Source: Terfezia claveryi (taxonomy: Eukaryota > Ascomycota > Pezizomycetes > Pezizales > Pezizaceae). Taken from it: 64,000 bases of DNA. Shown here one piece after another: positions 11,441 to 56,400 of the stretch. The position numbers and the translations under genes are program-made. Position 1 is the first letter of the stretch; the number at the start of each line of letters is the position of its first letter. The notes below the pieces were generated by a model that did not search any database, was not told the DNA's origin, and saw only the letters and a list, made by a program, of their open reading frames with translations. Location: NCBI GenBank assembly GCA_015179025.1, contig WHUX01000025.1, positions 1 to 64,000 on the forward strand. The letters are read 5' to 3'.

Positions 11441-14176
11441 GATAAAGATACCTATACATACCATTATGACAATATAAAGACCTTATTTCTTGGTCATATT
11501 GTCAATAGTCAACAAGTCTAAATAGATCCCTTTAAGCTTGAAACTATATCACAATAGTCTATCTCTATCAAAAAGAAAGAAGTATAAGCATTCTTAGGCT
11601 TTACTAACTATTATTATTAATTTATTACTAATTATAATACTAAGGCATGCTTTTTAATCAACTTGATAAAAAATATTCCCTTTAGTTGAGAGCATGAGCA
11701 ATGGCAAGTCTCTGAAGACCTCTGAGAACAATTTTTTATAGTACCTATTCTTATATAGGTTAACAGATAACTCAAAATAATTATGGAAAGTAATACTAGC
11801 AATCAGGCTATTGCTAGTATTCTTTCCTATTACCATATTATCAATAGAGGAAAGTAGCTTCACCCTATTGAATACTATATCAAAACCCTTTCTATAGATT
11901 AATGCAACTAGCCTATCTATAATACAGAATTGTTTGCAATTATAAATTATTTCTAGAAGTAGTAAGATTAGTTAGTAGGTATTCAAGTAAATATCTATAT
12001 AGACTATTAAGGGTTATAGTATTTCAATACAAAGTAAAAGCTTAACTTCTGTCAAGCTACCTGGTACCTCTATATGTTAAAGTTTATTTATAATATTCAC
12101 TATAGACTCAGATTAAAAATAGGCAAGCCTAATAGCCTATCTAGACATTCAGGGAAAGAGAAATCTAGAATAAATGCTAAATTTTTTGAAGATAGACAGC
12201 TTATAGTACTAGGAGAAGAGGATAAAGGGGAAGTAGAAAACATTAAAGTAGATGGTATAAATATAGTAAGATAGTAGAAGAAGGATTAACTATAGGTAGT
12301 ACCTTCTAAATACAAGTTAGAAGTACTGAAGTAGTACTATAATAAGTAAGTGGCTAGATATTAGAGAAGTTATTATACTTAAGAGCTAGTGTCAAGGAAC
12401 TTCATATGGGATAAATGATAAAAAGATATTGTGAACTATATGGTACCATATACTAAGTGTTAAAAAGTAAAAGCAGATAAATATAGTAGGCAAATAAAGT
12501 GGGTACTAATAGTAACTAAAGAATAACCATTTAAGGAAATAGTAATAGACTTTGTTAGTAAGTTATTAGAGTCAGGAGGCTTCAATACAATACTTATTAT
12601 TATAGACTAGTTTACAAAAGTACAAGATTATATTCTAATAAAAACTATATAGATAGTATCTGATATTGCAGATATCTATATCAATAAAATATAAAGACTC
12701 TATAGCCTTACTAGATATATCACCTCTAAGTGTAGTCCATAATTTACTTTTAAATTCCTTAAAGAGCTTAATCAAAACCTCAATAGTATCTTCTACCTAT
12801 TAACTGCTTACTACCCTCAGACTGATAGACTTGTAGAACAAGTAGTCCAAATATTCAAATAATACTTTTATATATACTAATATAATAAACAAGCTAGAGA
12901 GAAATGATAACTACCTTTAGCTAAATTTGTTAATAATACTGCTACTTATTCTACTAACAAATACTCTCCTTACTGAAGTCTTTATAGCTATAATTTATAT
13001 ACTATTTACTTCTCTAATAATTATGAATTCTCCTCTTCTGCTACTGAAAAATGGCTAAACTAAATAATAACTATATATAACCAAATTTATAATACCCTTA
13101 GGAGGATTAATCATAAAAGAAGTACTATTAACCTCAAAAAAGCATATAGCTATACTATCAATAATTGGATATTAGTTAACTATTGGAACCTATAAATATA
13201 AGCTGGAAAAAACTATTTCCTTACCAGCAAATGAATAAGATCTTATAAGGTTATTGAAACTATCAGTTTATATGTATATAGACTTGAAGTTCTATAAGGT
13301 ACATAATAGTATAATATTATTTATATCACCCTCCTTTAGCTATTCAAATAATAAAATGAGCTATAAAATATAGATAAAAATAAACTAGATATCTTTAAAG
13401 TCGAATTCATAGTAGACTATTAAAAAAATAGAGAAGTAGTTAAGTACCAAGTATAGTAGGTAGGGTATATAAAGTTTGAATATACTTAAAAAACCTTTAA
13501 CAAGTTGAATAACTATCTAGAAAAGCTTTAAGAAGTATCATGAGAAGTTTCCTAATAAGCTATAAGACAAAAAGGATATATAAAGCTGGCTCTACATTAA
13601 GATAATTAGTAGGTAAAGACATAGTACCTTTTACTCTTCTACTCATTGCTTTTTTTCTATAGGTTTTTTGGTGAGATGTCTGGTTTTTAATAGCTATAGT
13701 ATATATATATAGGCCTACTAGTCTTTTGGTACCCTAACCTATAAAGATAGAGGTATTAATCTATATGGTTTGTATCTACTAGCAAGAGTTACCTAAGTCA
13801 TTACTAATACTTGTCTTATTGAGGGTCAGAAGGACTTGTATTTAGCTTAGGTTAGCTGCTTTAAAATAGGAAGTCATCTTATAGCTCAAGTAAGAGACCT
13901 ATACTTCTAGTACAACTAATACTCTACTATAGATGCTAACTGTAATAGACTAATTACCTATACAGACACAGGTAGTACACTTGGGAATAAAGTATTAAAG
14001 AGATTAGCTATTGAAGTGTATACTTCTAGTATTGGCTCTTATATATATATTCTCTTTAATGTATTTCTATTATGTTTAGTTAGTTGATACTCCTAAATCA
14101 TTATTTATTATATCTAGGTTTAGCTTCTATAAGTTAGCCCAACTATAATATATTAAATTTCAGGCTACCTAATTAA
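11441..14176. other. AT-rich block, RIP-like, holding a gypsy relic
   Basis: Base composition changes sharply: TpA is abundant and CpG nearly absent. The readable part is listed separately (12020-13530). From about 13640 to 14176 there is no recognisable gene; it may be an eroded LTR. The block ends at ATTAA (14172-14176), the target duplication of the element that became B1/B3. Confidence 0.6.
12020..13530 (+). pseudogene. Ancient gypsy pol relic: RNase H, integrase, chromodomain
   Basis: Translation with many stops shows a gypsy order. The RNase H end appears as YNIHYRLRLKIGKPNSLSRH (about 12080-12150). The integrase core gives FVSKLLESGGFNTILIII (about 12550) and YYPQTDRLVEQVVQIFK (about 12810). 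A chromodomain-like KYQV.WVGYIKFEYT lies near 13440. The stops are mostly TAG/TAA where Trp or Gln is expected, as RIP would produce. It cannot be functional. Confidence 0.6.
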
Positions 14177-14681
14177 TGTAACAACCGTGTGTTCAATTGT
14201 CATCACCTGCGATCGCAGGTGATGGGTCATTGCCATTATTGTCTTTGTCATCACCTGCGATTGCAGGTGATGGGTTATTGTGTTATCGTTACCTTGCTTG
14301 GCTTCCGAGATAGGGAAGCTTATTTTCCCCATTGCCCTGACCGAGTTATGTATATATAGAGCCTGTCCCTCGTACTGTCGTTGGATCCCTATCCAATGTC
14401 TTGTATATCCAATACAGGGCCTTGCTTCTCTCCACGTTGGTGCATCTTCCTTGTGCACCTTCTTGTCTCGCCTCGTCTCTGTAGCCCAGCTGCCTCCCTT
14501 GACACACGCGGCAACTGCTTCCGCATGTCTCGTGTCTCTTGCCCTCTGCCTCTCTTGCCTCTTGCCCTTGCCTCCCGTCTCAGCCTCCCCTGGTCACACA
14601 CGTAGCGTTCCTATGTGTGTGTTATCCTAGCCTTGCCGCAGCGTACCCCTTGGTCGCCTTGCCTCCAGAGCCGTCGTTACA
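14177..14681 (+). repeat. 5' LTR of B1
   Basis: U3 begins with two tandem palindromes (CACCTGCGATCGCAGGTG near 14206, and a copy with one change near 14252). TATATATA lies near 14351. The RNA start is probably near the hairpin GTTGGAT-CCCT-ATCCAA at 14380-14396. Diagnostic variants are CCCTATCC in the hairpin and GCCTCC near the end, both shared with the B3 left LTR, not with B1's own 3' LTR. Confidence 0.93.
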
Positions 14682-14683
14682 CT

Positions 14684-14705
14684 ACGTTGGATCACCCTGA
14701 CCAAC
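14684..14705 (+). promoter_or_regulatory. Primer-site hairpin of B1
   Basis: Two bases after the LTR comes ACGTTGGAT, complementary to ATCCAACGT in the R region of sister LTRs (B1 itself has one change, ATCCAATGT at 14391-14399). It lies in a hairpin GTTGG-A-TCA-CCC-TGA-CCAAC. It does not resemble a tRNA 3' end. I infer self-priming; an alternative is a packaging signal. Confidence 0.5.
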
Positions 14706-14720
14706 TGGTACGTCCACATT

Positions 14721-15892
14721 ATGGCAAGTCAAGAAACCACTCCTACGCTCCCAGGAGCTAGGTTCCAAGCCTGGCAAGCACTGCCAATCCCAAAAAATCA
14801 GACCGACTTCAACAACTATCGTAACACCATCATCGACATTTACCTTACTGCGGACACCATGGGGTTGCAACTAGAAGCAGCCATGCGTGAAGCCCAACAG
14901 AAACTGGCCAGAGCCGAAGATAAAATCACAATACTCACAGAGGACCTTACATCCTGCCAGAAGGACTTGGCCAATGAAAAGAGGACTGTCCAAACCCTAA
15001 CCAGGGCCCTAGACACCATAAAACCTGGGAATCAGGCACCTCAGGCCCCCAAAACACAGGACCTCCCCACTCCACCGAAATTCAAGGGCGAAAGGTCCCG
15101 CCTCAAACCTTGGAAGAACTCGATCAATATCAAGCTAAATGGGGATGCCGCAAAGTTCCCCACCATCCAACACCGCTTGGCCTACGTGTATGGCCTACTG
15201 GAGGATAAAGCCTTGGACCAAGTCCAACCATATGTCCAGGACTCTGGTATCAAGTTAGCAGACATTCCTGCACTATTCGCTATCCTCGATCGGGCGTTTG
15301 GAGATCCAGACCTGGCAGGAACAGCAACCAGAGCCCTTCAGGCCCTAAGAAAACGAGGCAATGACCTCTCAACATATGTAGCCGAATTCTCGAGGCTAGC
15401 GGCAGAGGTACCATGGAACAACCAGGTAAAACTGGAACAGTTCGAAGAGGGCCTTAGTGTCGAGATCAAAAAGCACCTTATTCTGTCTCCAGCAAAAACT
15501 CTTGAGGAACTCATCGACCTGGCCTCGCAGGTGGAACAAAGAACAGCCAGATTAGGGATGCAACAGGCCTGGAATCAACACCCCTAGCATCCATCACAGC
15601 CCTGCCCCCAGAATCAGAATACCTAAAACACACCTAACCCAGGTAAGGTAGCACACCCTTCCATGGTAGCTGGGGAGCCACCCCAATAGACCTATCCTCA
15701 GGAAGACCCCGACTCACTCAGGGGGAAAGGGATTGCCGCCGCAACAATGGATTGTGCATTACATGTGGCAAGGGGGACCACTTCATCACAGCATGTCCCT
15801 TCCGCAAGAACCGATCCCTGGCCGCCCACACCATATCCGAATCAAGGATTGAAGAGGTTGAAGAATCGGGAAAAGGGGAGTCCCTTGCCTAG
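14721..15892 (+). pseudogene. B1 gag (broken near C-terminus)
   Basis: ATG at 14721, 39 bp after the LTR. The N-terminal region (GARFQAWQALPIP, then NTIIDIYL) is followed by a coiled coil at about residues 50-95, a TPPKFKGERSRL motif before the capsid-like domain, and a region ending ARLGMQQA. The ORF stops at 15585-15587 (TAG). Beyond lies a zinc knuckle (CITCGKGDHFITAC) in another frame, because of a 1-nt shift near 15690 also seen in B3. The gag frame ends at TAG 15890-15892, inside the frameshift stem. Confidence 0.85.
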
Positions 15893-15913
15893 TTACTGAC
15901 ACTAGCAAGGGAC
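15868..15913 (+). promoter_or_regulatory. Predicted -1 frameshift signal, B1 gag/pol
   Basis: GGGAAAA (15868-15874) is in phase with gag as G GGA AAA. A 5-nt spacer leads to a stem, 15880-15892 with 15902-15913, with one bulged C and a 9-nt loop. The pol frame is -1 relative to gag and is open through the signal into protease. Confidence 0.65.
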
Positions 15914-18020
15914 CTGCCCAGGGCCATTTATCTTTGTCTGTGTTTTCTTTACCTGCACCTATGTCTGTTGATGAATCTCGCTTGTTTGGCGAGCATTTTG
16001 TAGTACCAATAACTGTTAAATTCAATGGTAAAACAGTGGTAACATCAGCTCTCATCGATTGTGGTGCTTCGGGAATTGCATTCATTAATCAGGCCTTTGT
16101 CAGTAAAAATTCCATACCAACCTCGAAGTTAAAAACCCCCCACCTTCTCGACGTCATTGATGGCCGCTCCATCTCTTCTGGGGCTATTACCGACCTCGCA
16201 TGTCTGCCCAGTGCCATTGGAGACCATTCGGAGGATCTCCCAATGTTTGTGACCAAACTTAAATATCCAATTGTACTTGGGATCCCCTGGCTCAGAATGC
16301 ACGATGTGTCAGTCAGCTTCGGCTCGTACTCCTTGCAATTCAACAGCCATTATTGCAGAAAAACCTGTGGAGGTCCAAAAATCACTGTCACGGGGCTATG
16401 CGCATTACCACCCCCAATAATCCACCTAGCCCAGATGGTACACCAGCCCGCGCACATCAATGCTGTCTACTCCCTAGTTACCCCTATCCCCCCTGTTCCC
16501 TTGGCGACCCCAAAACCCTGAACGTTAGCTTTATCGGGGCAGGGGCTTTTGCTTACCTCACCAGGAGGCACAAGCTGAAGGCTCATGCCCTATCTATACA
16601 CGAGGTTAACCTGGAAATTAACAAGATGCGGCCTAAGGAGGAGTGGAAGGCTATGGTCCCAGATGAATATCACGAGTTCATTGATCTGTTCTCGGAAAAG
16701 GCCGCAGAGAAACTCATACCACACCGACTATACGACCACACTATCCCGCTGGTAGAAGGTAAAACCCCCCCTATGGGCCTCTCTATGGAATGTCCCAGGT
16801 TGAGCTGGAAGCCCTGAAGAAATACTTGGAAGAAAACCTCAACAAGAGCTTCATTCGCCACAGCTCCTCACCAGCGGGTGCCCCGGTCCTGTTCGTGAAG
16901 AAATCAGACGGCTCCCTTCGGTTGTGTGTTGATTATCGTGGCCTGAACGAGATAACGGTCAAAAACAGGTACCCCCTACCCCTAATCCAGGAGACATTAG
17001 CCAGGCTCTCCAAGGCCAAGTGGTTCACCAAACTGGATTTGAGAGGGCATACAACCTGGTACGGATCGCCAGGGGAGGAGTGGAAAACTGCCTTCCGAAC
17101 TCGTTATGGCCACTTTGAGTATAATGTTATGCCTTTTGGGTTGACTAATGCCCCGCCTCTTTCCAGCACTTTATTAATGACACCCTCGAGACTTTCTGGA
17201 TGTGTTCTGCACAGCCTACCTTGACGATATCCTGATCTATTGGATACCCTGGCAGAGCACAAAATCCATGTTCATCAAGTGTTGGAAAGCTGGAGCAAGC
17301 CGGATTGTACCTCAAGTCCGAGAAATGCGAGTTTCATGTGCAAGAGGTCAAGTATCTGGGGTTGATTATCACTACCGAAGGTATCAGGATGGATCCCACC
17401 AAGGTTACCGCTGTCCAGGAATGGCAAATCCCAGCAAATCTCAAGGATGTCTAAGCCTTCCTGGGTTCGCTAACTTTTACCGGCGGTTCATTCTAGGGTA
17501 TTCGAAGATCGTAGCCCCCCTCACCGCCCTGACAAGAAAGACCGGCTTCACTGGAATCCAGAAGCCCAATCTGCCTTCCAGAACCTCAAGGAAGCTTTCT
17601 GCTCAGCACCGATCCTGGCCCATTTCGATCCGGACAGCGAATGTATCGTGGAGACTGACGCCTCCGACTATGTCTCCGTGGGAATCTTGTCTCAGTATGT
17701 CAATGGGATCCTCCACCCAGTGGCATACTTCTCAAAAAAGCACTCTCCGGCTGAGTGTAATTATGAAATCTATGATAAAGAGTTAATGGCCATTGTGCGA
17801 GCATTCGAGAAGTGGAGGCCACACCTGGAGTCAGCCAAGGGGATCATCGAGGTGCTATCCGATCATAAGAATCTTGAGTACTTCACCACCACTAAGCTGC
17901 TGAACCGACGGCAGGCTAGGTGGTCGGAGTTCTTATCTCGATTCAACTTCAAGATCAAGTATCGGCCTGGAAAAGCTGGGGTAAGCGGATGCACTGACCA
18001 GGAGATCAGGAGATCTCCCT
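15893..18020 (+). pseudogene. B1 protease, RT and RNase H (broken)
   Basis: Protease shows [17 protein letters not shown] near 16054 (DCG in place of DSG). A spacer with PxPP repeats follows. RT starts near 16800 ([20 protein letters not shown] at about 16890; FTKLDLRG at 17025; AYLDDILIY at about 17214). RNase H has ETDASDYVS (about 17650) and SDHKNLEYF (about 17860). Frameshifts occur near 16520, 16780, 17050, 17150, 17250 and 17990. Sister copies B3 and C1 read through most of these, so they are copy-specific. Confidence 0.88.
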
Positions 18021-18097
18021 AAAGGGGGGATGAAAGGTTGAAGTACCAAAATCAGGTGGTACTGAAACCTGAAAATCTCGACCTGGTGGCCACTAGC

Positions 18098-18177
18098 CAT
18101 GCTGATGCTGATGCTGATGCTGATGCTGATGCTGATGCTGATACTGATGCTGATGCTATACTGATGCTGATGCTAAA
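18098..18177 (+). repeat. (GCTGAT)n tract in the B1 RNase H-integrase linker
   Basis: A GCTGAT hexamer tract encodes alternating Ala-Asp in the pol frame, with a phase slip near 18152. B3 has a matching Ala-Asp tract and B2 an Ala-Glu/Ala-Asp tract at the same place. C1 has only a few such residues. Confidence 0.85.
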
Positions 18178-19770
18178 GCTGAAGCGAACCCAGGAGCAGA
18201 TCTCCTTCTGCGGATACAACGGGCATATGCGGAGGACGACTGGTTAAGGATATAATCGCTGCAGTGGAGTCTGGATAGCGCCATCACACAAGATTTCCTA
18301 GCCGAGTGCACCACTCAGGACGGCCTCCTATACCACCTAGATCGGCTCTATATACCTGAAGGAGAGCTGCGGATGCAGCTGATCAAGGAACACCATGATA
18401 CCCTGGCTGCGGGTCATCCTGGGGTAGCTAAAACGTTAGAGCTACTAGCTAGGCAATATACATGGATTGACCAACGGAAGAGGTGGAGCGGTACATACGG
18501 AATTGCCATGTCTGCAAGCATGCCAAACCACCCACCATGCTCCGTATGGTACCTGAAGCCCCTGGAAGTCCCAGAACAACCCTGGCAACACCTGACTATG
18601 GACTTCGTTACCGGATTGCGGAAGACTCGGATTCAACGCCATCTTGATGGTAGTGGATCGGTTAATGAAAATGAGGCATGTGATACCCTGTCGAGACACC
18701 TGCTCGGCCCCCGAATTGGCATCCCTCTACCTGGATAATGTCTTCTGTTACCATGGCCTCCCAGCGTCGATTGTCTCAGACCGTGGCCCTCAGTTCGTCG
18801 CCGATTCTAGAAAACATTCTGTGAGCTGTTGGGTATTGAAGTACACTGTCTACGGATACCACCCTCAGACTGATGGCCAGTCAGAACGTATGAACACCAT
18901 CATGGAGCAATATCTGAGGGCGTACATCAATTACCAGCAGAATAATGGGTTTCATTGCTGGCCACCTGCGAATTCTCCGCCAACAACCACTTCTCTGAGA
19001 CCTGAAGACCTCCCATTCCTGGCCAATTATGGCTGGCACCCTCGGTTCGTAGACTCCCTGGCACCTCTGCGCAAGGCCAGGGAGAATGCCCCAGCTAAGG
19101 AGTTCGCCACGCAGATTTCTGAACTTCACTCTACCTGAAAGCCGAGCTGGGATATGCGCAAGCCAGGCAAGCTGAATATGCCAACGGATCACGACTGCCA
19201 GCCCCCAGATACCAGCCAGGAGACAAGGTGTGGCTCTCTAGTCGGCACTTCCGGACAGAACGACCTTCTCGTAAGCTGGATCATAAGTTCTGGGCCATAT
19301 GAGGTATTAGGGAATGTGGGCACTCACGCCTACCGGTTGAAGTTCCCTAAAGATATCAAATGCCACCCGGTCGTTCACATCTCGGAGATCGAACCAGCGC
19401 CAATGATCCCCTCCCCGGGCAAAAGCACCCCCCACCCCCTCCTGTAGTGATTGCAGGTGAAGAGGAGTGGGAGGTTGAGGAGGTACTGGACTCCAGAAAA
19501 CGCTATGGGCGAGTTCAGTATAAGGTCAAGTGGGTAGGGGACGAGGAGACTACCTGGCAACCCGCAGAGGACTTGGAGAATGCGCAGGATTTGGTTACCC
19601 TGTTCTACCAGCAATACGCCAGGAAGCCTCGCCCAGTCGACAGATGTCGCGACTTTGCATCCTGGTTGTTTTTTCTGTTCTTGTTGTTCGGAGTTGGGGT
19701 TCTTGTCCTTGCTCTTGTTATTGTTGTTTTCTGTGTTGATTTTGCCAGTTATCGTGCCCAGGCCTCCTAG
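18178..19770 (+). pseudogene. B1 integrase and chromodomain (broken)
   Basis: The HHCC finger is near 18380-18530 (IKEHHDTLAAGHPG; the first Cys of the CHVC pair reads as CHV in another frame). The core has MDFVTGL (18598), SDRGPQFV (18778) and the Glu region QTDGQSERMN (18868). The GPYEVLG motif lies near 19290, and the chromodomain near 19465-19600 (EEVLDSRKRYGRVQYKVKWV, ending DLVTLFYQQY). Chromodomains of this class bind histone marks and steer integration. Frameshifts occur near 18475, 18630, 18810, 18960, 19135 and 19290. Confidence 0.87.
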
Positions 19771-19801
19771 TCGCTAGAGCTCCAGCCTAAGGGGGGGATA
19801 G

Positions 19802-20306
19802 TGTAACAACCGTGTGTTCAGTTGTCATCATCTGCGATCGCAGGTGATGGGTCATTGCCATTATTGTCTTTGTCATCACCTGCGATCGCAGGTGATGGGT
19901 TATTGTGTTATCATTACCTTGCTTGGCTTCCAAGATAGGGAAGCTTATTTCCCCATTGCCCTGACCGAGTTATGTATATATAGAGCCTGTCCCTCGTACT
20001 GTCGTTGGATCCCCATCCAACATCTTGTATATCGAATACAGGGCCTTGCTTCTCTCTACGTTGGTGCATCTTCCTTGTGCACCTTCTTGTCTCACCTCGT
20101 ATCTGTAGCCCAGCTGCCTCACTTGACACACGCGGCAACTGCTTCCACGTGTCTCGTGTCTCTTGTCCTCTGCCTCTCTTGCCTCTTGCCCTTGCCTCCC
20201 GTCTCAGCCTCCCCCTGGTCACACACGTAGTGTACCTACCTGTGTGTTATCCTAGCCTTGCCGCGGCGTACCCCTTGGTCGCCTTGCCCCCAGAGCCGTC
20301 GTTACA
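19802..20306 (+). repeat. 3' LTR of B1
   Basis: 505 bp, preceded by a purine tract (AAGGGGGGATAG) that is the likely plus-strand primer. It carries the variants CCCCATCC and GCCCCC, shared with the right LTR of B3. The right flank CTGCG (20307-20311) is the target duplication whose partner is at 55869-55873. Confidence 0.93.
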
Positions 20307-20616
20307 CTGCGCTGCAGAGTTGTTTTTATAGGATAGGGGTGTGCACAAGAGAGGTGCACAAGCGCTAGGAGAAGCAAGGTCCTGTATTGGGTATACAAGA
20401 CGTTGGATGGGGATCCAACCACAGTACGAGGGACAGGCTCTATATATACATAACTCGGTCAGGGCAATGGGGGAAATAAGCTTCCCTATCTCGGAAGCCA
20501 AGCAAGGTAACGATAACACAATAACCCATTACCTGTGATCGCAGGTAATGACAAAGACAACAATAGCAATGACCCATCACCTGCGATCGCAGGTGACTGA
20601 ACACAAGGTTGTTACA
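20307..20616 (-). repeat. 3' LTR of B2, proximal 310 bp
   Basis: The fragment starts at CTGCGCTGCAGAG and ends GGTTGTTACA. It contains both palindromes (the inner one changed to TTACCTGTGATCGCAGGTAA) and the hairpin with CCCC loop. It is cut exactly at the B1 junction. Confidence 0.9.
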
Positions 20617-20799
20617 CTATCCCCCCCTTAGGCTGGAGCTCCAGCGATTAGGAGGCCTGGGCACGATAACCGGCAAAATCAACACAGAAAACAACAACAA
20701 CAACAAGAGCAAGGACAAGAACCCCAACTCCGAACAACAAGAATAGAAATAACAACAAGGATGCAAAGTCACGACCTCAGTCGACTGGGCGAGGCTTCC

Positions 20800-22222
20800 T
20801 GAGGTACTGCTGGTGGAACAGGGTAACCAAATCCTGCGCATTCTCCAAGTCCTCTGCGGGTTGCCAGGTAGTCTCCTCGTCCCCTACCCACTTGACCTTT
20901 TATTGAACTCGCCCATAGCGTTTTCTGGAGTCCTGTACCTCCTCAACCTCCCACTCCTCTTCACCTGCAATCAATACGGGAGGGAGTGGGGGGTGCTTTT
21001 GCCCGGGGAGGAGATCGTTGGCGGCTGGTTCGATCTCTGAGACGTGAACGACCGGGTGGTGTTTGATATCTTTAGGGAACTTCAACCGGTTGGCGTGAGT
21101 GCCCACATTCCCTAATACCTCATAAGGCACCAGGAACTTATGATCCAGTTTACGAGAAGGTCGTTCTGTCCAGAAGTGCCTACTAGAGAGCCACACCTTG
21201 TCTTCTGGCTAGTATCTAGGGGCTGGTAACCGTGATCCATTGGCATACTCCACTTGCCTGGCCTGCGCATATCCCAGCTCGGCTTTCAGAATACAGTGGA
21301 GTTCAGCGATTCCAACCGCGAACTCCTTAGCTGGGGGGTGGGCTTTTTGCAGGGGTGCTAGGGCCTCCATGAACCAAGGGTGCCAACTATAGTTAGCCAA
21401 GAAAGGCGAGGTTTTGGAGGATTCTGAGAACTGGTTGTTCGTGCCGAATTCGCAGGTGGCCAGCAATGAAACCCAGTTATCCTGCTGGTAATCAATGAAG
21501 GCCCGCAGATATTGCTCCATAATGGCATTCATCCTCTCCGATTGACTGTCCGTCTGGGGGTGATATGCCATTGACAAACGCACTTTGATCCCCAGAAGCT
21601 CGCAGAAGGCTCTCCAAAAGTCCGAGGTGAACTGAGGGCCATGGTCAGACATGATGGATTCGGGGAGCCCGTGATACTGGAACACATTGTTGAGGTAGAG
21701 GTTGGCCAACTCCGGAGTAGAACAGGTGTCCCGACAAGGTATGACATACCTCATCTTCGTCAGCCGATCCACCACTATCAAGATGGCGTTGAATCCCGAG
21801 TCTTCCGGCAATCCCATTATGAAATCCATGGTCAGGTGTAGCCACGGCCGATCCGGGATATCCAGGGGCTTCAGAGTGCCATATGGGGCATGGCAGGTGG
21901 GCTTAGCATGTTTACAAACATGGCAGTTCCGTACGTACCGCTCCATGTCCTTCCACTGGTCAATCCAGGTGTATTCCCTGGCCAAGAGCTCTAACGTCTT
22001 AGCCACTCCAGGGTGACCCGCCACTAAGGTATCATGGTGTTCCTTGATTAGCCTCAGGCGTAACCCTCCTCCTTCCGGTACAGAGAGCCATTCGAGGTGA
22101 TAGAGGAGGCCCTCCTGTACTATACACTCGGCCAGGGAAATCTTAGGGTAGCAGTGCTGGCCGGAATCCACTGCAGTGATGATTTTCTTGGCCAGGGGGT
22201 CGTCCTCATAGGCCTGTCTCAC
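20800..22222 (-). pseudogene. B2 integrase and chromodomain (near intact)
   Basis: A 337-codon frame (21209-22222) holds the HHCC finger (HHDTLVAGHPG; CHVCKHAK), the catalytic core (MDFIMGLPEDSGFN, SDHGPQFT, QTDSQSERMN with the conserved Glu) and the flank GPQ/GPY region. The second D lies in SDHGP where SDRGP is usual. A second frame (20900-21196) covers the GPY/F segment and chromodomain start. A TAT-to-TAA stop within RVQ-KVKW cuts the chromodomain. This is one of the best-preserved integrases in the window. Confidence 0.88.
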
Positions 22223-22235
22223 CAGTTGTCAGAGG

Positions 22236-24533: not shown

Positions 24534-24558
24534 CTAGGTAAGGGACTCCACTTTTCCC
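24513..24558 (-). promoter_or_regulatory. Predicted -1 frameshift signal, B2 gag/pol
   Basis: GGGAAAA (24558-24552) is followed by spacer GTGGA and the stem GTCCCTTACCTAG / CTAGCAAGGGAC. One pair is disturbed relative to the other copies (TTA for TTG). Confidence 0.55.
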
Positions 24559-44740: not shown

Positions 44741-47700
44741 ATTAACTTTATACCTATTTTATATTTAATACTTTATATTCTTTATGTTTCTTCTCCTAAC
44801 TATTATTTTAAGTTTATTATTTTCTAATCATAAATTATATTTTATATCTTTAATTATAAATTATATTTTATATCTCTAAATTTATTATATTATTTTCTAA
44901 CTAACTTTTCTCTAGCTCTAATAGTATCAAATATACAATCTTTTATATTTGTGATATTTTAACTATAACCTTTTCCTTACTTATTAGCAATTTAATATAA
45001 ACTATCTCTTCTATACTCTATATATTAATAGTATTTTCTCTAATACATTAAAGCAAATTTATATATATCAACTAGTATACTATTTCTGCTATAGTTATTA
45101 CTTTAAATAATATATTAATTTATTCTAGTATTTATTTATTTAGTATTCCTACTAGTACTTCATGTAATGTATACTGTCTTCTTATCTATATCTAATTATA
45201 TCTTTCCTTCCTATAAAACTTCTTAGTACATCTAGTATTATGTAAAATGAACCTTTCTTCATTGAACTTTAGTACTAGAATTTAAAGTATCATATATAAA
45301 TGAATTTTCTAAACTAATAGTCCCATAGAGTTGGAATCTATACTTCTAACTTTTTGCTATAAAAATACTTGCATTATTAGTACTAGATCTAGTAAGCTAG
45401 TTATAAACTTCCTATCCTCAAGGCTAGATATTAATTTCTACTTAATTTTTGCCTACAACTTCAAGTAGACTTATCTAATAATGAGTATTATATTTTTATT
45501 TTATTTAACTTAGTTTTATAGATTAAGTTTTAAGTCTTTTATAATAAAAGTATAATCTCTCATATAAATAGTAACTATTTGTAGCATTATATTAACCTTA
45601 TTACTTTGATGGTAAGTATTCTTAAGGCCTTTATATATGACTTTACTAATATCTATAGCATATTTAGCTAGAGCTCCAAACTTTAAAATCTATTTAGTAT
45701 AATGAGAGATTAAATAGACTTTTAGGAAATTGAAGTACACTTCTTCTTAAAAAATATTATTTACTAATTCCTAATAGTACAAGGTATTCTTTTAATATAT
45801 CCTAACTTTTTCTAATACTATAAGATCCTCAACTAATAACCATATTTATTCCTTTAACAAATCCTTATATAGATTTGTAGTAGCCTTTTTTGTTTTCTTA
45901 TCAGTACTAAACTTTAAAAATATAGCTTTAGTTTAAATACATACAAATATTCTTATAAATAAAAAACTATCCTATCTAAATAACTAGTATACTAAAATAT
46001 AAGATAGAAGTTATTGATACTATATATATAGTAAATTATTTAATTGAACTTCTATATCTGACCTCTAGTAGGCTGTAGTTAGTTAGCTTTCTAATACAAT
46101 ACTGTAGTAAATGTTCCAAGAATAACTTTACAAAGCTCTATATTTCCTTTCCTAACTATTATAAAATAACTTTATATCTTTTAGTTAGAACTAAAAATCT
46201 AGTATAAGGAGACAACTAATATCAAACATAGTCAAATACATTATTCTACTTATAGTATTCAAGAAAACCTTGAATGTAATCTATTAAATAATTTAATACT
46301 TTTAGAAGGATATTATATAAAATATTTGCTTAAATAAGCTCAGGCAGAATTTATATTTGGAACTGACTACAAGATATTTTTAATATTTTTAATACTATTT
46401 ACTTTCAAACTAATAGTATTGGAATTATTATATACTGTAGTATAACTTTGATATAAGTAAGCTAAATAACTACTTTCTGAATACTTATTAAGCTTTTTGA
46501 TAGTAATTATATAAGAAAAGTAATAGTTATTTATAATACCTTAAATTGTAGTATTTTTTATATAGTTACTGAGTAAACAAAAAAGCTTAAGAAAGTATAA
46601 GTATATATTTTTATTAGTATAAACTATCTTATAGACTTTCTAATGTCTCACATCAAATAGTAGTTTCAGAAAATATACCAAAATATTATATATAGTTTGT
46701 AATACCTAAATTTTTTGTATTTCTACTAAATATGCAAGTATTTTATTAATTTGTTTTAGCTTTATTGGTAGTAATGCAATTGGTATCTAGCTATATATTA
46801 TATATATATTATATATAGAGCTTTAAATATTACTAATACTTATATAAATAGGCTATAACTTTTTTTTTATAGAGAAATTTATTTAGTAAGTTTCCACTAA
46901 TACTAGTAAAATTAGAATAAGTATTCTACTTTTAGGTAGTAAAGTCTATCCATGTTAGTTAGTTAGATATTTAATATAGTATATAGAAATTACTTACTTA
47001 AGTGTTTTCTTACAACTTTAAAGTATAGATTTTACTATATACTCTATTTCTTTTATTGTTATATTCTTGCTATAAGCTTTAGGCCATCTCACTAGTATAA
47101 ACCTTTTGGTATAGAAGGTACTTTACTACTACAATAATATTATGATAATAAAAAGCTACCCTCTTAAATAATAAGTAGTTCACTATTTCTAAATACTAAA
47201 AAGGTTTATTTGCTGCCCTATTAATAAGCTTATATATTATATATACTAACTAAAATTAAATCTTATACATTAAATTGAAGCCTTTTAAGAAGTTATTTAA
47301 GAAAAACTAGTAGATCTTTAAGTATGAAGTCTTTATAGAATTGAAGAAGTATACTAGTTAATAATCAATTCAAGTATAGAATAGAGTAAACAAATTGAAG
47401 TTTCAGTCTTTCTCCAAAAATATATGTTAATATATTAGGTTGCCTATATATAGATAGGTAATTGCATTAATATGCTAACTTCACTTATTAGCTTTTAGTT
47501 CTATATAAAAAGTTCAAGCCTCTCTATCAAATTCTTTATTATAGTATAAATCAAAGTAGTAATCAATATTAGTAGATATAATATCTATGAAATTAACTTC
47601 ATCTATATCATATACTATATCTGCAGAATTTCTAGTATTCAAAAACTAATACTTTTGAGATAATAGTAATAGCCAATAAAGATCATTTAAATTTTTTTCA

Positions 47701-49719
47701 GAATAAACCTTTGTCAGATGATTTGAATATATTCTAGCTAAAGTATAGAATTATAGGTACTATTAGTATAGAGTTTTGTATTTGTTTATTTTATTATAGG
47801 GGTTATAAAATATTGTAAGAGACAGATTTATGATATAATATTTTTATTAATAGAATCTTAAGGCATAAACTTTATAAGTGTTTAGGTTCTAATAACATTA
47901 AATAAGAAATTGTATCTAATATGATATATTTGATCTTACTAAGAAAATATATATACTTAAAGTTAGCTTAACTTATATTTTGGTACAAGCCTCTATAAAG
48001 GTCTAACTAAAATTAGGTATAAGAGAATCTTATAAGTTAGATGACTAGCTACTTATAGTTTTTTAGCACTCTTACTAAGCTACAAATCCTACTGCAAATA
48101 TAATAGGATAAAATAGAATAGATAAAATATAAGTTCTAACTCTACTAGTTGGAATACTCTTGTAGTTTATTAAAACTCTTCCTTTAAAATAAAACTACAA
48201 TTTTCAATCTAAATGAAACAATTACTTTCTATATAAACCTTAATATTGACTCTTCTTTACCCCAAATTATTAATTCTTTCTTGCCTTATCCTTCCTATTT
48301 TGCTTATTTTTCTATAGATATTTATAATAGATATATTATTATCTTATCTACTACCTCTAATTTAACTTTACAGATAGTGAAAGTATTAGATTTAGAGAAT
48401 TCTCTAGAGTTAAGGAAGAGATTAGAGTTAGTAGAGGTATAGAAGAGAATAGAAATAGGACTATAAGTAGGATATGTTCTTAGTTCTCTAATTTATTACT
48501 AGTTATAGATAATCCTAAATAATGTAACTCTAAATATTTCTTTGCTTATTAACTATATAGTAATAGTAATATAGGTAGTACTTTTATATCCTCCTATAGA
48601 TCCTTAATATTAGTAGTTAATTTTAATAGGGTATTTAAAGAAGAGCTATCTACTTATATTAACTTTATATTCTATATAATATCTTCATTAAGTCTTTATT
48701 AATACTAATAAAATATTAGCTAAAACTAAGACTTTTGCTTTAATTATAGGAGGGCTCTATTATAGGTGAGCTAGAACTATGGAAATACTTCAGAGAAGAA
48801 GATAGAAAATTATAAAGTGAAGTATAAGTATAGCTATAACTTGGATATATTATATAAGGAAGTCACATTCTATTTCCCAATGAAATATAACTCCTATTAT
48901 ATACAAACTTTTAACCTAGTAGAATAAGCTATTATTAGGCTAATAGTATTAGATAGTAGATAATAATAATAGGTATAGTAACTTATGTATTTCATTATAG
49001 TAATAAGTATAACTCATTTAAAGAGTTATATGCTACTTGCAGTTATATTTTCTAGTAGTTTTGGAAGTTTCTATCATATTGATTTCAAATTATGTAATGG
49101 ATTAGATAATGCCATACTGCCCTAATACTGCCCCAACACTACCCCAATACTACTCTAATCCATGCAATATATAGTCTCCTAAATTTCTCTCAGTTAAAGA
49201 AGCATTCAAGTTAGATAGAATCTAGAGACTAAGATATAATTTATATATCAATAATTTAAGTATTAAGCTACTATATTTTGGGCCTATTATGAGCCTATCT
49301 CCCTTTATATTCCAATAACAAGTTATAGGCCCAATGGGCTTATTTTCTACAACTAGAGTAATAATAAAATATGTATGAGCAAGAAATACTTAAACAGAAG
49401 CTATTGGTTCCATAGATCTATAGTTTGCTGTAGTAAACTCTAGTACTACCACCAGTAGTAGAGAGTTGTTTATGAAGCATACTACTTTACTTTACATATT
49501 ATAAACTCGATAAGAGTAAAGCTATATAATACCTAAAATACTGTTTGAGTCTTATTATATTAACTATATAAAAGTAGTAGATTATATTAAAGCTTAGATC
49601 TAATAATATATAATCAAATTTAGATAGTACTTCCTATAATAGCTTAAAAGTATTGATATTAGGTGGTTGCCTAAATAGAAAACCACTTTCTAATTCGAAA
49701 CATTATAGTCTAAAATATA
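44741..49719. other. 5-kb AT-rich block without readable genes
   Basis: TpA-rich, CpG-poor DNA full of stops in all frames. A few short GC-richer islands occur (for example 49105-49170, with CTGCCCCAACAC repeats). It resembles 11441-14176 in composition and is probably RIP-eroded transposon DNA, but I could not identify a family. It ends at TTAAT (49720-49724), the reverse complement of the ATTAA duplication left of B1. Confidence 0.5.
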
Positions 49720-49724
49720 TTAAT

Positions 49725-50230
49725 GGTAACGACAGCTCTGGAGGCAAGGCGACCAAGGGGTACGCCGCGGCAAGGCTAGGATAACACACACGTAGGAACG
49801 CTACATATGTGACCAGGGGGAGGCTGAGACGGGAGGCAAGGGCAAGAGGCAAGAGAGGTAGAGGGTAAGAGACATGAGACACGCGGAAGCAGTTGCCGCG
49901 TGTGTCAAGGGAGGCAGCTGGGCTACAGAGACGAGGCGAGACAAGAAGGTGCACAAGGAAGATGCACCAACGTGGAGAGAAGCAAGGCCTTGTATTGGAT
50001 ATACAAGACGTTGGATAGGGATCCAACGACAGTACGAGGGACAGGCTCTATATATACATAACTCGGTCAGGGCAATGGGGAAAATAAGCTTCCCTATCTC
50101 GGAAGCCAAGCAAGGTAATGATAACACAATAACCCATCACCTGCGATCGCAGGTGATGACAAAAACAACAATGGCAATGACCCATCACCTGCGATCGTAG
50201 GTGATAACAACTGAACACACGGTTGTTACA
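49725..50230 (-). repeat. 3' LTR of B3
   Basis: 506 bp. It carries CCCTATCC in the hairpin and GCCTCC near the end, as in the 5' LTR of B1, not as in B3's own 5' LTR. Type I palindromes lie at about 50135-50205. Confidence 0.92.
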
Positions 50231-50390
50231 CTATCCCCCCCTTAGGCTGGAGCTCCAGCGACTAGGAGGCCTGGGCATGATAACCGGCAAAATCAACACA
50301 GAAAACAATAACAACAAGAGCAAGGACAAGAACCCCAACTCCGAACAACAACAAGAACAGAAAAAACAACAAGGATGCAAAGGCGCGACC

Positions 50391-51850
50391 TCAGTCGACT
50401 GGGCGAGGCTTCCTGAAGTATTGCTGGTGGAACAGGGTAACCAAATCCTGCGCATTCTCCAAGTCCTCCGTGGGTTGCCAGGTAGTCTCCTCATCCCCTA
50501 CCCACTTGACCTTATACTGAACTCGCCCATAGCGTTTTCTGGAGTCCAGTTCCTCCTCAACCTCCCACTCCTCTTCACCTGCAATCACTACAGGAGGGGG
50601 TGGGGGGTGCTTTTGCCCGGGGAGGGGATCGTTAGCGGCTGGTTCGATCTCCAAGACGTGAACGACCGGGTGGCGTTTGATATCTTTAGGGAACTTCAAC
50701 CGGTAGGCGTGAGTGCTCACATTCCCTAATACCTCATATGGCTCCAGGAACTTATGATCCAGCTTACGAGAAGGTCGTTCTGTCCGGAAGTGCCGACTAG
50801 AGAGCCACACCTTGTCTCCTGGCTGGTATCTGGGGGCTGGCAGTCGTGATCCATTGGCATATTCAGCTTGCCTGGCTTGCACATATCCCAGCTCGGCTTT
50901 CAGGTAGAGTGAAGGTCAGAAATCTGCGTGGTGAACTCCTTAGCTGGGGCATTCTCCCTGGCCTTGCGCAGAGTTGCCAGGGAGTCTACGAACCGAGGGT
51001 GCCAGCCATAATTGGCCAGGAATGGGGAGGTCTTTAGGGTCTCAGAGAAGTGGTTGTTGGCGGAGAATTCGCAGGTAGCCAGCATTGAAACCCAGTTATT
51101 CTGCTGGTAATTGATGTATGCCCTCAGATATTACTCTATGATGGCGTTTATACATTCTGACTGGCCATCAGTCTGAGGGTGGTATGCCGTAAACAGGTGT
51201 ACTTCAATACCCAACAGCTCACAGAATGTTTTCCAGAAGTTGGCGACGAACTGAGGGCCACGGTCTGAGACAATCGACGCTGGGAGGCCATGGTAATGGA
51301 AGACATTATCCAGGTAGAGGGATGCTAATTCGGGGGCCGAGCAGGTGTCTCGACAGGGTATCACATGCCTCATTTTCATTAACCGATCCACTACCATCAA
51401 GATGGCGTTGAATCCCGAGTCTTCCGGCAATCCGGTGACGAAGTCCATAGTCAGGTGTTGCCAGGGTTGTTCTGGGACTTCCAGGGGCTTCAGGGTACCA
51501 TACGGAGCGTGGCGGGTGGGTTTGGTACGCTTGCAGACATGGCAATTCCGTATGTACTACTCCACCTCCTTCTGTTGTTCAATCCACGTATATTGCCTAG
51601 CTAGTAGCTCTAACGTTTTAGCTACTACAGGATGACCTGCAGCCAGGGTATCATGGTGTTCCTTGATCAGCTGCATCCGCAGCTCTCCTTCAGGTATATA
51701 GAGCCAATCTAGGTGGTATAGGAGGCCGTCCTGAGTGGTGCACTTGGCTAGGGAAATCTTGGTGTGACAATGCTGTCCAGACTCTACTGCAGCGATTATA
51801 TCCTTAACCAGGTCGTCCCCTGCATATGCCCGTTGTATCCGCAGAAGGAG
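50391..51850 (-). pseudogene. B3 integrase and chromodomain (broken)
   Basis: Frames: 51557-52003 (linker and HHCC finger, EHHDTLAAGHPV), 51131-51448 (MDFVTGLPEDSGFN, SDRGPQFVAN, QTDGQSECIN, stop where EQYLRA is expected), 50900-51085, and 50391-50882 (C-terminal GPY-like segment, then chromodomain EEELDSRKRYGRVQYKVKWV). The stop after NAIIE is CAA-to-TAA, a CpA-to-TpA change. Confidence 0.88.
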
Positions 51851-51874
51851 ATCTGCTCCTGGGTTCGCTTCAGC

Positions 51875-51945
51875 TTTAGCATCAGCATCAGCATCAGCAT
51901 CAGCATCAGCATCAGCATCAGCATCAGTATCAGCATCAGTATGGC
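51875..51945 (-). repeat. (GCTGAT)n tract in the B3 linker
   Basis: Minus-strand GCTGAT units encode about ten Ala-Asp pairs between RNase H and integrase, as in B1. Confidence 0.85.
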
Positions 51946-54141
51946 TAGTGGCCACCAGGTCGAGATTTTCAGGTTTCAGTACCACCTGATTTTGGTACTT
52001 CAACCTTTCATCCCCCCCTTTAGGGAGATCTCCTGATCTCCTAGTCAGTGTATCTGGCTTACCCCCAGCTTTTCCAGGCCGATACTTGATCTTGAAGTTG
52101 AATCGAGATAAGAACTCTAACCACCTAGCCTGCCGTCAGTTCAGCAGCTTAGTGGTGGTGAAGTACTCAAGATTCTTGTGATCGGATAGCACCTCGATGA
52201 TCCCCTTGGCTGACTCCAGGTGTGGCCTCCACTCCTCGAATGCTCGCACAATGGCCATTAACTCTTTATTATAGATTTCATAATTACACTCAGCCGGAGA
52301 GTGCTTTTTTGAGAAGTATGCCACTGGGTGGAGGATCCCATTGACATACTGAGACAAGATTCCCATGGAGACATAGTCGGAGGCATCAGTTTTCACGATA
52401 CATTCGCTGTCCGGATCGAAATGGGCCAGGATCGGTGCTGAGCAGAAAGCTTCCTTAAGGTTCTGGAAGGCAGATTGGGCTTCTGGATTCCAGTCAAAGC
52501 ACCGGTCTTTCTTGGTCAGGGCGGTGAGGGGGGCTACGATCTTCGAATACCCTAGAATGAACCGCCGGTAAAAGTTAGCGAACCTCAGGCAGGCTTGGAC
52601 ATCCTTGAGATTTGCTGGGATTTGCCATTCCTGGATAGTGGTAACCTTGGTGGGATCCATCCTGATACCTTCGGTAGTGATAATCAACCCCAGATACTTG
52701 ACCTCTTGCACATGAAACTCGCATTTCTCGGGCTTGAGGTACAATCTGGCTTGCTCCAGCTTCTCCAACACTTGACGAACATGGATTTTGTGCTCTGCCA
52801 GGGTATCCGAATAGATCAGGATATCGTCAAGGTAGGCTATGCAGAACAATCCAGAAAGTCTCGCAGGGTGTCATTAATAAAGTGCTGGAAAGAGGTTGGG
52901 GCATTAGTCAACCCAAAAGGCATAACATTATACTCAAAGTGGCCATAACGAGTTTGGAAGGCAGTTTTCCACTCCTTCCCCTCAGCGATCCGTACCAGGT
53001 TGTATGCCCCTCTCAAATCCAGTTTGGTGAACCACTTGGCCTTGGAGAGCCTGGCTAATGTCTCCTGGATTAGGGGTAGGGGGTACCTGTTTTTGACCAT
53101 TATCTCATTCAGGCAACGATAATCAACACACAACCGAAGGGAGCCGTCTGATTTCTTCACGAACAGTACCAGGGCACCCGCTGGTGAGGAGCTGTAGCGA
53201 ATGAAGCTCTTGTTGAGGTTTTCTTCCAAGTATTTCTTCAGGGCTTCCAGCTCAACCCGGGACATTCTATAGAGAGACCCATAGGGGGGGTTTTACCTTC
53301 TACCAGCGGGATAGTGTAGTCGTATGGTCGGTGTGGTGCGAGTTTCTCTGCGGCCTTTTCCGAGAACAGATCAATAAACTCGTGATATTCATCCGGGACC
53401 ATAGCCTTCCACTCCTCCTTAGGCCGCATCTTGTTGATTTCCAGGTTAACCTCATGTATAGATAGGGCATGAGCCTTCAGCTTGTGCCTCCTGGTGAGGT
53501 AAGCAAAAGCCCCTGCCCCGATAAAGCTAACGTTCAGGGGTTTTAGGGTCGCCAGGGGAACAGGGGGACAGGGGTAACTGGGGAGTGGACAGCATTGATG
53601 TGCGCGGGCTGGTGTACCACCTGGGCTGGGTGGATTATCGGGGGTGGTAATGCGCATAGCCCCATGATGGTGATTTTTGGACCTCCACAGTTTTTTCTGC
53701 AATAATGGCTGTTGAATTGCAAGGAGTACGAGCCGAAGCTGACTGACACATCGTGCATTCTGAGCCAGGGGATCCCAAGCACAATTGGATATTTTAGTTT
53801 GGTCACAAACATTGGGAGGTCCTCCGAATGGTCTCCAATGGCACTGGGCAGACACGCGAGGTCGGTAATAGCCCCAGAAGAGATGGGGCGGCCATCAATG
53901 ACGTCGAGAAGGCGGGGGGTTTTTAACTTCGAGGTTGGTATGGAATTTTTACTGACGAAGGCCTGATCAATGAATGCAATTCCCGAAGCACCACAATCGA
54001 TGAGAGCTGATGTTACCACTGTTTTACCATTGAATTTAACAGTTATTGGTACTACAAAATGCTCGCCAAACAAGCGAGATTCATCAACAGACATAGGTGC
54101 AGGCAAAGAAAATGCAGACAAAGATAAATGGCCCTGGGCAG
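51946..54141 (-). pseudogene. B3 RNase H, RT and protease (broken)
   Basis: Frames: 52136-52849 ([11 protein letters not shown], thumb, RNase [12 protein letters not shown]), 52837-53265 ([33 protein letters not shown]), 53238-53855 and 53543-54121 (SVDESRLFGEHF, protease [12 protein letters not shown]). Shifts lie near 52845, 53260 and 53560. ETD has become KTD at the RNase H start, which removes the Glu but keeps the Asp. Confidence 0.88.
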
Positions 54142-54187
54142 GTCCCTTGCTAGTGTCAGTAACTAGGCAAGGGACTCCCCTTTTCCC
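54142..54187 (-). promoter_or_regulatory. Predicted -1 frameshift signal, B3 gag/pol
   Basis: GGGAAAA (54187-54181), spacer GGGGA, stem arms 54175-54163 and 54153-54142. It is identical to B1 in this stretch. Confidence 0.65.
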
Positions 54188-55329
54188 GATTCTTCAACCT
54201 CTTCAATCCTTGATTCGGATATGGCATGGGCGGCCAGGGATCGGTTCTTGCGGAGGGGACATGCCACGATGAAGTGGTCCCCCTTGCCGCATGCGATGCA
54301 CAATCCATTGTTGCGGCGGCGATCCCTTTCCCCCTGAGTGAGTCGGGGTCTTCCTGAGGATAGGTCCATTGGGGTGGCTCCCCAGCTACCATGGAAGGGT
54401 GTGCTGCCTTACCTGGGTCAGGTGGGTTCTGGGTATTCTGATTCTGGGGGCGGGGCTGTGATGGATGCTGGGGGTGTTGATTCCGGGCCTGTTGCATCCC
54501 TAATCTGGCTGTTCTTTGTTCCACCTGCGAGGCCAGGTCGATGAGTTCCTCAAGAGTTTTTGCTGGAGACAGAATAAGGTGCTTTTTGATCTCGACACTA
54601 AGGCCCTCTTCGAACTGTTCCAGTTTTACCTGGTTGTTCCATGGTACCTCTGCCGCTAGCCTCGAGAATTCGGCCACATATGTCGAGAGGTCATTGCCTC
54701 GTTGTCTTAGGGCCCGAAGGGCTCTGGTTGCTGTTCCTGCCGGGTCTGGATCTCCAAACCCCGATCGAGGATAGTGAATAGTGCAGGAACGTCTACTAAC
54801 TTATACCAGAGTCTTGGACATATGGTTGGACTTGGTCCAAGGCTTTATCCTCCAGTAGGCCGTACACGTAGGCCAAGCGGTGTTGGACAGTGGGGAACTT
54901 TGCGGCGTCCCCATTTAGCTTGATATTGATCGAGTTCTTCCAAGGTTTGAGGCAGGACCTTTTGCCCTTGAATTTCGGAGGAGTGGGGAGGTCCTGTGTT
55001 TTGGGGGCCTGAGGTGCCTGATTCCAGGGTTTATGGTGTCCAGGGCCCTGGTTAGGGTTTGGACAGTCCTCTTTTCATTGGCCAAGTCCTTCTGGCAGGA
55101 TGTAAGGTCCTCTGTAAGTATTGTGATTTCATCTTCGGCTCTGGCCAGTTTCTGTTGGGCTTCACGCATGCTGCTTCTAGTTGCAACCCCATGGTGTCCG
55201 CAGCGAGGTAAATGTCGATGATGGTGTTGCGATAGTTGTCGAAGTCGGTCTGATTTTTTGGGATTGGCAGTGCTTGCCAGGCTTGGAACCTAGCTCCTGG
55301 GAGCGTAGGAGTGGTTTCTGACTTGCCAT
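54163..55329 (-). pseudogene. B3 gag (broken)
   Basis: ATG at 55329. It is the same gag type as B1 (GARFQAWQALPIP; coiled coil; capsid-like part with SVEIKKHLILSPAKTLEEL), with frameshifts near 55170, 55010 and 54800. The knuckle CIACGKGDHFIVAC (54163-54369) is out of frame with the upstream part by the same 1-nt shift as in B1, so that defect predates both copies. Confidence 0.85.
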
Positions 55330-55345
55330 AATGTGGACGTACCAG

Positions 55346-55368
55346 TTGGTCAGGGTGATCCAACGTAG
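55346..55368 (-). promoter_or_regulatory. Primer-site hairpin of B3
   Basis: Same hairpin as B1 (GTTGG-A-TCA-CCC-TGA-CCAAC). The R region of this LTR has a perfect ATCCAACGT, complementary to ACGTTGGAT here. Confidence 0.5.
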
Positions 55369-55868
55369 TGTAACGACGGCTCTGGGGGCAAGGCGACCAA
55401 GGGGTACCGCTGGGCAAGGCTAGGATAACACACACATAGGAACGCTACGTGTGTGACCAGGGGGAGGCTGAGACGGGAGCAAGGCAAGAGGCAAGAGAGG
55501 CAGAGGGCAAGGAACGAGACACGCGGAAGCAGTTGCCGCGTGTGTCAAGGGAGGCAGCTGGGCTGCAGAGACGAGGCGAGACAAGAGGTGCACAAGGGAG
55601 ATGCACCAACATGGAGAGAAGCAAGGCCTGTATTGGATATACAAGACGTTGGATGGGGATCCAACGACAGTACAAGGGACAGGCTCTATATTTACATAAC
55701 TCGGTCAGGGCAATGGGGAAAATAAGCTTCCCTATCTCGGAAGCCAAGTAAGGTAACGATAACACAATAACCCATCACCTGTGATCGCAGGTAATGACAA
55801 AGACAACAATGGCAATGACCCATCACCTGCGATCGCAGGTGATGACAACTGAACACACGGTTGTTACA
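55369..55868 (-). repeat. 5' LTR of B3
   Basis: 500 bp with CCCCATCC and GCCCCC variants, as in the 3' LTR of B1. The flank CGCAG (55869-55873) is the reverse complement of the CTGCG next to B1. Confidence 0.92.
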
Positions 55869-56079
55869 CGCAGCAGCTGCCTCCCCTAACATACGCGGCA
55901 ACTGCCTCCGGGTGTCTCGTGTCCCCTGCCCTCTGCCTCCCTCGCCCTTGCCCCTACCCCCATCCTAGCCTTTCCCCTTAGTCACACACGTAGCATTCCT
56001 ACGTGTGTGTGTGTTACCCTAGCCTTGCCCTTGCCCTGGCGTACCCCTTGGTTGCCTTGTCCCCAGAGCCATCGTTACA
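55869..56079 (+). repeat. 3' LTR of B2, distal 211 bp, displaced by inversion
   Basis: The sequence (CAGCAGCTGCCTCCCC to ATCGTTACA) is the part missing from 20307-20616. Minus the 5-bp duplication, the two pieces give 516 bp, the length of B2's intact LTR. The flank ATCTG (56080-56084) matches CAGAT at 35062 in reverse. Confidence 0.92.
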
Positions 56080-56400
56080 ATCTGATTAACCTATAAATTA
56101 GGGAACTAGCAAGCTATTCCGGAGTTCAGGTGTATATTTATGATAGTTGGAGGGGAGTGGGGGGTAGGTCATAAGCGCTAATATATAGGATATCAACTAT
56201 TTACTTCTTGGAGCAGCGATTTGCTCTCGGAGCAAGATTTTCTTTGGCTATCTGATTAACCTATGAATTAGGGAGCTAGCAAGCTATTCTAGAGTTCAGG
56301 TGTACATTTATGATAGTTGGAGAGGGGGGCAAGAGGGGAGATTATAAGCGCCTATATATAGTATATCAACTATATAATGTTACAGTCTTGAAGCAGTGAT
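56080..56400 (-). repeat. 170-bp satellite, left inverted arm
   Basis: About two units in reverse orientation relative to 58290-58945. They include GAGTTCAGGTGTA, ATTTATGATAGTTGG and the TTCTTTGGCTATCTGATTAACC junction, the B2 target. Confidence 0.8.

Follow-up and report, generated by a model that had tools for sequence, protein, structure and literature searches.

Exchanged target duplications point to an inversion between inverted Ty3-type LTR retrotransposons in Terfezia claveryi

In the available parts of its published account, inversion 2z3 of Drosophila buzzatii is attributed to ectopic recombination between copies of the element Galileo, which were recognised by their opposite orientation, their exchanged target duplications and the chimeric structure of the copies (PMC2775673). 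Long terminal repeat (LTR) retrotransposons that lack matching duplications are described, in the accessible sections of a second source, as a known product of unequal homologous recombination (PMC7251063), and in those of a third a retrotransposon-mediated translocation is suggested, without exchanged duplications (PMC12510652). Here we describe a stretch of 64,000 nucleotides, hereafter the window, from the family Pezizaceae: the first 64 kb of the 487,872-bp contig WHUX01000025.1 of Terfezia claveryi (assembly GCA_015179025.1; genome 72.6 Mb, 794 contigs). It carries two LTR retrotransposons, B1 and B3, in opposite orientation and with exchanged target duplications, and an older element, B2, whose own duplication is split. 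These observations are best explained by an inversion that arose when two Ty3-type LTR retrotransposons in inverted orientation recombined ectopically, a reading to which we assign a probability of about 0.87.

As in 2z3, the copies are oppositely oriented, the target duplications are exchanged and both copies are chimeric, although the chimerism is less firm here; the interval containing the switch is 385 bp long, compared with 141 bp in Galileo. Galileo is a DNA transposon, whereas B1 and B3 are LTR retrotransposons, and the 2z3 study sequenced non-inverted chromosomes, whereas the present analysis draws on one assembly. Unlike in 2z3, as far as the available parts of that account go, a third, nested element gives an additional record (PMC2775673). 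The locus also resembles the cases in PMC7251063, in which intact elements with dissimilar flanks result from homologous recombination among copies. The available text of that article is concerned with solo LTRs and the removal of elements and nowhere uses the word inversion; in the present case, by contrast, both reciprocal products lie on one contig and the rearrangement would be an inversion. The mechanism is already known, and the locus is a good new example of it; no claim is made that published fungal cases are absent. Its value is that of a single-genome record of retrotransposon-mediated inversion, with two exchanged duplications, a third that is split, two empty-site homologues and a candidate crossover. 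Such a record shows how exchanged duplications allow an inversion to be recovered from a single assembly, with no need for an outgroup.

The features involved are given below, P and Q being the two insertions of which B1 and B3 would be composed.

14172-14176, plus strand: target duplication ATTAA of insertion P, left copy, read from the sequence; precedes TGTAAC
14177-20306, plus strand: B1, Ty3-type LTR retrotransposon, putatively left part of P and right part of Q
14177-14681 and 19802-20306, plus strand: B1 LTRs
14721-15587: B1 gag open reading frame (ORF), Retrotrans_gag match
16475-16859, plus strand: candidate crossover interval in B1, best at 16729/16737, from the flip in private substitutions
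20307-20311, plus strand: CTGCG, one copy of the Q target duplication, after TTACA and also inside the B2 3′ LTR
20307-20616, minus strand: first 310 bp of the B2 3′ LTR, cut by insertion Q; 93% match to the other B2 LTR
20307-35061, minus strand: B2, older LTR retrotransposon, with A2 nested in it and its 3′ LTR severed by Q
21209-22222 and 22666-23445: B2 integrase and reverse transcriptase (RT) ORFs, profile matches
24834-33643, minus strand: A2, LTR retrotransposon nested within B2, duplication TGTTG on both sides
34546-35061, minus strand: B2 5′ LTR, intact, 516 bp
35062-35066, plus strand: B2 target duplication, CAGAT here and ATCTG on B2's own strand
49720-49724, plus strand: second copy of the P duplication ATTAA, inverted (TTAAT)
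49725-55868, minus strand: B3, LTR retrotransposon, putative reciprocal P/Q chimera
About 49725-50230 and 55369-55868, minus strand: B3 LTRs
53196-53580, minus strand: candidate crossover interval in B3, best at 53318/53326
55869-55873, plus strand: CGCAG, second copy of the Q duplication
55869-56079, plus strand: remainder of the B2 3′ LTR, 211 bp, of which 5 bp are duplicated
56080-56084, plus strand: B2 target duplication ATCTG, other side
58331-58888, minus strand: repeat copy homologous to the B2 target with the B2 site unoccupied, 498/563 identical across the joined flanks

B1 and B3 are 95.4% identical over 6168 aligned columns. Both elements, and B2, have the features of Ty3-type elements (Metaviridae), namely TG...CA LTRs, 5-bp duplications, gag, and RT followed by integrase. 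The B2 ORFs were scanned and match RVT_1 and RNase H, then H2C2/rve; the Retrotrans_gag match is in B1, and RT and integrase in B1 and B3 were assigned by homology to B2 over the same part.

B1 is flanked by ATTAA on the left and CTGCG on the right, and B3, read on its own strand, by CTGCG and ATTAA, so that the flanks are concordant only when paired crosswise. This pattern of mismatched flanks and perfect crosswise 5-bp duplications had been described in the first-pass annotation of the window, and both letters and boundaries held on re-examination, with one trivial change at a B3 end base: B3 starts at 49725, where the final base of its 3′ LTR is C on the element strand, not A. A third duplication, that of B2, is discordant as well. 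ATCTG is found at 35066-35062 on the B2 strand and its partner ATCTG at 56080-56084, and the two sites would flank a single element only with the middle of the region turned back. The B2 3′ LTR is likewise in two pieces of 310 and 211 bp, which share the 5 duplicated bp and sum to 516 bp, the length of the intact LTR. Alignment to that intact LTR bore out the earlier description of this split: 22/310 and 21/205 aligned sites differ, with one gap column. A single flip makes all three discordant duplications concordant, and an inversion is the simplest history for them.

Longer stretches of flanking DNA lead to the same arrangement. To the left of 14176 lies one copy of an AT-rich repeat that is dispersed in the genome. 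If the inversion occurred, the sequence ending at 14176 should once have adjoined the reverse complement of the sequence ending at 49719. Among 271 candidates, 40 were scored; 20 of these 40 non-self matches listed reach 14176, and the continuations of all 20 were fetched. Every one of the 20 repeat copies aligns over the joined ATTAA flanks, 19 extending at least 175 bp beyond the join and one (L026) 13 bp; the best homologue among the matches listed is a gap-free alignment of 521 bp at 81% identity. An empty B2 site is present within the window itself, as the joined B2 flanks match the repeat at 58331-58888 over the join. Since hundreds of aligned bases are involved, these two tests are independent of the 5-bp duplications. 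Chance is not enough to account for two 5-mers that match crosswise, an independent third pair and homologues spanning two joins. No second allele of either flank was seen among the matches listed, the best non-self match being 78% for both flank queries (40 scored candidates each). AT-rich dispersed repeats with a G+C content of 21-30% occupy 12001-14176 and 45500-47944; for each, at least about 40 further copies were listed, at 71-78% identity. In addition, 58236-58931 contains 98-bp and 170-bp tandem repeats in inverted relation to 56080-56480, matching the repeat that hosts B2.

In the proposed mechanism, P and Q would have been closely related Ty3-type elements in opposite orientation, P inserted within an AT-rich repeat with the duplication ATTAA and Q, with the duplication CTGCG, inside the 3′ LTR of B2. 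P and Q would then have crossed over ectopically (non-allelically) at a point some 2.55 kb inside the elements, and the DNA between them would have been inverted. The products of this crossover would be B1, with the left part of P and the right part of Q, and B3, with the left part of Q and the right part of P; the duplications would thereby be exchanged and B2 split. The inverted segment would run from about 16.73 to 53.32 kb, or about 36.6 kb. Recombination of inverted copies flipping the middle of the region had already been suggested in the first-pass annotation, and it gains support from the empty-site homologues and from the reciprocal switch in private substitutions described below. The flipped segment had been given as 20307-49724 plus parts of B1 and B3; by the mapped switch, it would reach into the two elements as far as about 16.73 and 53.32 kb.

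Retention of duplications in other members of the family was assessed on 27 fetched loci, 20 matched by gag and 7 by LTR, from which four with one recognisable LTR (L036, L051, L052 and L053) were excluded. Among the remaining 23 two-LTR copies, an exact 5-bp duplication was found in 18, a duplication with one mismatch in three (L043, L048 and L054) and none in two (L059 and L060). Loss of the duplication is therefore uncommon in this family, 21/23 copies matching with at most one mismatch. Within the window, A1 has CCATA and A2 has TGTTG on both sides, and element C has GAAAT versus AAAAT (one mismatch). Only B1 and B3 were shown to be reciprocal among the copies examined, and a pattern search with the Q flank plus LTR start gave B3 itself as the sole match. 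The flanks of L059 (ACTGC/CTTAT) and L060 (TATAT/CTTGG) are unmatched 5-mers, and these two copies are possibly recombination products as well. A reciprocal partner for L059 was sought; one pattern match was found at C89, the other end of which was not clearly readable, and this candidate was dropped. A1 (262-9458, 9.2 kb) and A2 (24834-33643, 8.8 kb) are also inverted copies of an LTR element, about 94-96% identical in three long matching pieces; each retains its own duplication, giving no sign of an exchange like that of B1 and B3.

A reciprocal crossover should also leave both copies chimeric. A pairwise alignment of the two copies shows 244 substitutions, 208 of which are transitions, spread evenly at about one per 20-25 bp. 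With 10 related copies, a multiple alignment and a symmetric similarity filter, 223/241 differences could be polarised, and 177 of these 223 are C-to-T or G-to-A changes, affecting 18% of CpG sites, 7% of CpA sites and less than 2% of CpC and CpT sites. The preference for CpG and CpA suggests mutation like repeat-induced point mutation (RIP), or methylation decay acting in both contexts. Private substitutions in the internal region (186 sites) were distributed between B1 and B3 as 60:13 up to 16729 and 40:73 beyond (0/1000 shuffles as extreme), and over the whole element the switch in load had p = 5e-5 (0/20000 shuffles). This flip matches the prediction for a reciprocal crossover in which one partner was heavily and the other lightly mutated. 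The switch point, which it had earlier been proposed to map by aligning B1 with reverse-complemented B3, is placed best at 16729/16737, with a support interval of 16475-16859 in B1, corresponding to 53580-53196 in B3 (385 bp). Segmentation by the Bayesian information criterion gave 294.7, 293.2 and 294.4 for one, two and three breaks versus 313.8 without a break; these values do not separate one, two and three breaks clearly, and each of the three solutions places one break at 16.5-16.7 kb. Measured against third copies, the load of B1 goes from relatively high to low and that of B3 from low to roughly equal. Both copies look chimeric, with one switch over the internal region, subject to the caveats set out below, and of the three marks of such an inversion this one is the weakest.

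Other approaches to the crossover were also tried. The longest identical run between B1 and B3, 189 bp at 15381-15569, is not favoured as a site of crossover or conversion: eight fully covering relatives differ from B1 at 0-5 of its 189 positions (with a B1-based filter), and the tract is thus conserved in the family. Third-copy similarity in 400-bp windows was too mosaic to be read by eye, and L054-L060, which have similar LTRs, are about 76-82% alike internally and were of no help to mapping.

Several observations weigh against the placement of the crossover or against the inversion itself. To control the switch, 66 pairs among 12 aligned copies were considered, of which 32 with at least 80 polarised internal sites were tested and 34 dropped; L061-L064 were taken for this mapping and are not among the copies scored for duplications. 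Of the 16 comparisons of B1 or B3 against third copies, 10 had p < 0.05, seven of these ten with a break at 16465-16888. However, 4/15 control pairs containing neither B1 nor B3 also had p < 0.05 with no known inversion, the smallest p was common to B1/B3, B3/L063 and L062/L063, and L062/L063 was, like B1/B3, opposite-signed with p < 0.01 on both sides. The tested pairs are not independent, since B1 and B3 help to polarise the other comparisons, and the signals in control pairs imply that mosaic history in the family can mimic a load switch. When only L037 was used, the one copy among the first 20 relatives with a close match to B1 along almost the full length, the three-way count was clearly asymmetric on the left, 46:9 over 15177-16676, and weaker to the right, 29:47 over 16677-18676 and then 35:34. 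The four LTRs of B1 and B3, aligned with 11 columns from unequal end trimming not counted, are no more favourable. They are near star-like and say nothing firm on pairing: differences are 19/505 for the P pair, 32/499 for the Q pair, 22/504 within B1 and 29/500 within B3, and five informative substitutions divide as two for the predicted pairing, one for the present pairing and two for the third. The variants cited earlier in favour of the exchange do exist, but they were a selection, and the argument lapses at this 2:1:2. Singletons are fewer in the P LTRs (6 and 9) than in the Q LTRs (14 and 20, after removal of 1 and 5 trimming columns), the reverse of the internal load; four singletons in the B3 5′ LTR are gaps, and C-to-T plus G-to-A singletons alone are alike in the four LTRs (5, 8, 8 and 7). 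Conversion of the LTRs from other copies is possible. The load switch at 16.73 kb may reflect older mosaic ancestry, the inversion being real and the crossover lying elsewhere between the LTRs, an account that is compatible with the inversion and draws on the strong mosaicism of the family, the control pairs and the disagreement between LTR and internal loads. We consider it unlikely, as the changes in B1 and B3 run in opposite directions at one and the same position and most polarised differences are of the C-to-T/G-to-A type, as expected for decay after insertion.

An assembly misjoin is a further rival: the assembler could have switched between the two inverted copies of 6 kb and so reversed the central part of the contig, while the chromosome remained uninverted. 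Over 6.1 kb the two copies share 95% identity, and such a misjoin would give rise to the same exchanged duplications and chimeric pattern. On the other hand, the copies differ about every 20-25 bp, the mapped switch lies outside the 189-bp identical stretch, within an interval that holds no identical run longer than 85 bp, and the 21/23 copies with duplications at no more than one mismatch indicate that the assembly usually resolves this family. The window contains no N, and the contig is long. We regard a misjoin as improbable and infer that the event took place in the organism rather than during assembly; because this rival stands, "proven", the word applied to the inversion in the first-pass annotation, is too strong. 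It could also be argued that each B copy lost its duplication through separate recombinations and that the crosswise match is a coincidence. Such loss does occur, 2/23 other two-LTR copies being without matching duplications, but this history needs chance 5-mers at two joins in addition to the split LTR and duplication of B2, and homologues span exactly the joins predicted by the inversion. It is strongly disfavoured and has hardly any probability left.

For the inversion, a relative order of events can be given. Nesting shows that B2 is older than both Q and A2, and the LTR differences are in keeping with this (B2 43/515, Q 32/499, A2 18/677). The order B2, then the nested copy, then the inversion, as proposed earlier, is upheld by the direct nesting and by the LTR differences of B2 versus those of Q and of P (19/505). 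If the mapped switch is the crossover, the flip in load at this point implies that most of the load difference is older than the inversion, which probably followed most of the C-to-T decay of the copies; no date is assigned, since decay may not be clock-like. Repeat decay is usually thought to prevent ectopic recombination in repeat regions. A crossover between copies already diverged by C-to-T decay, whether RIP-like or methylation-driven, within a 385-bp interval with no identical run above 85 bp, is a tentative proposal to which we give somewhat less than an even chance. If it is true, the load flip across the crossover acts as a clock, by which most of the decay had already occurred when the inversion took place. 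The case, if confirmed, would also bear on the question of whether C-to-T decay puts an end to recombination among repeats.

The remainder of the window contains further repeats and elements. A 23-bp minisatellite occupies 35456-36785 and 43214-43524, with about 58 and 13 copies, and element C (36789-43210), a Ty3 element with a chromodomain, is inserted in it between the flanks GAAAT and AAAAT. In addition, an ORF of 410 aa at 59697-60929 encodes a Copia-type reverse transcriptase (RVT_2).

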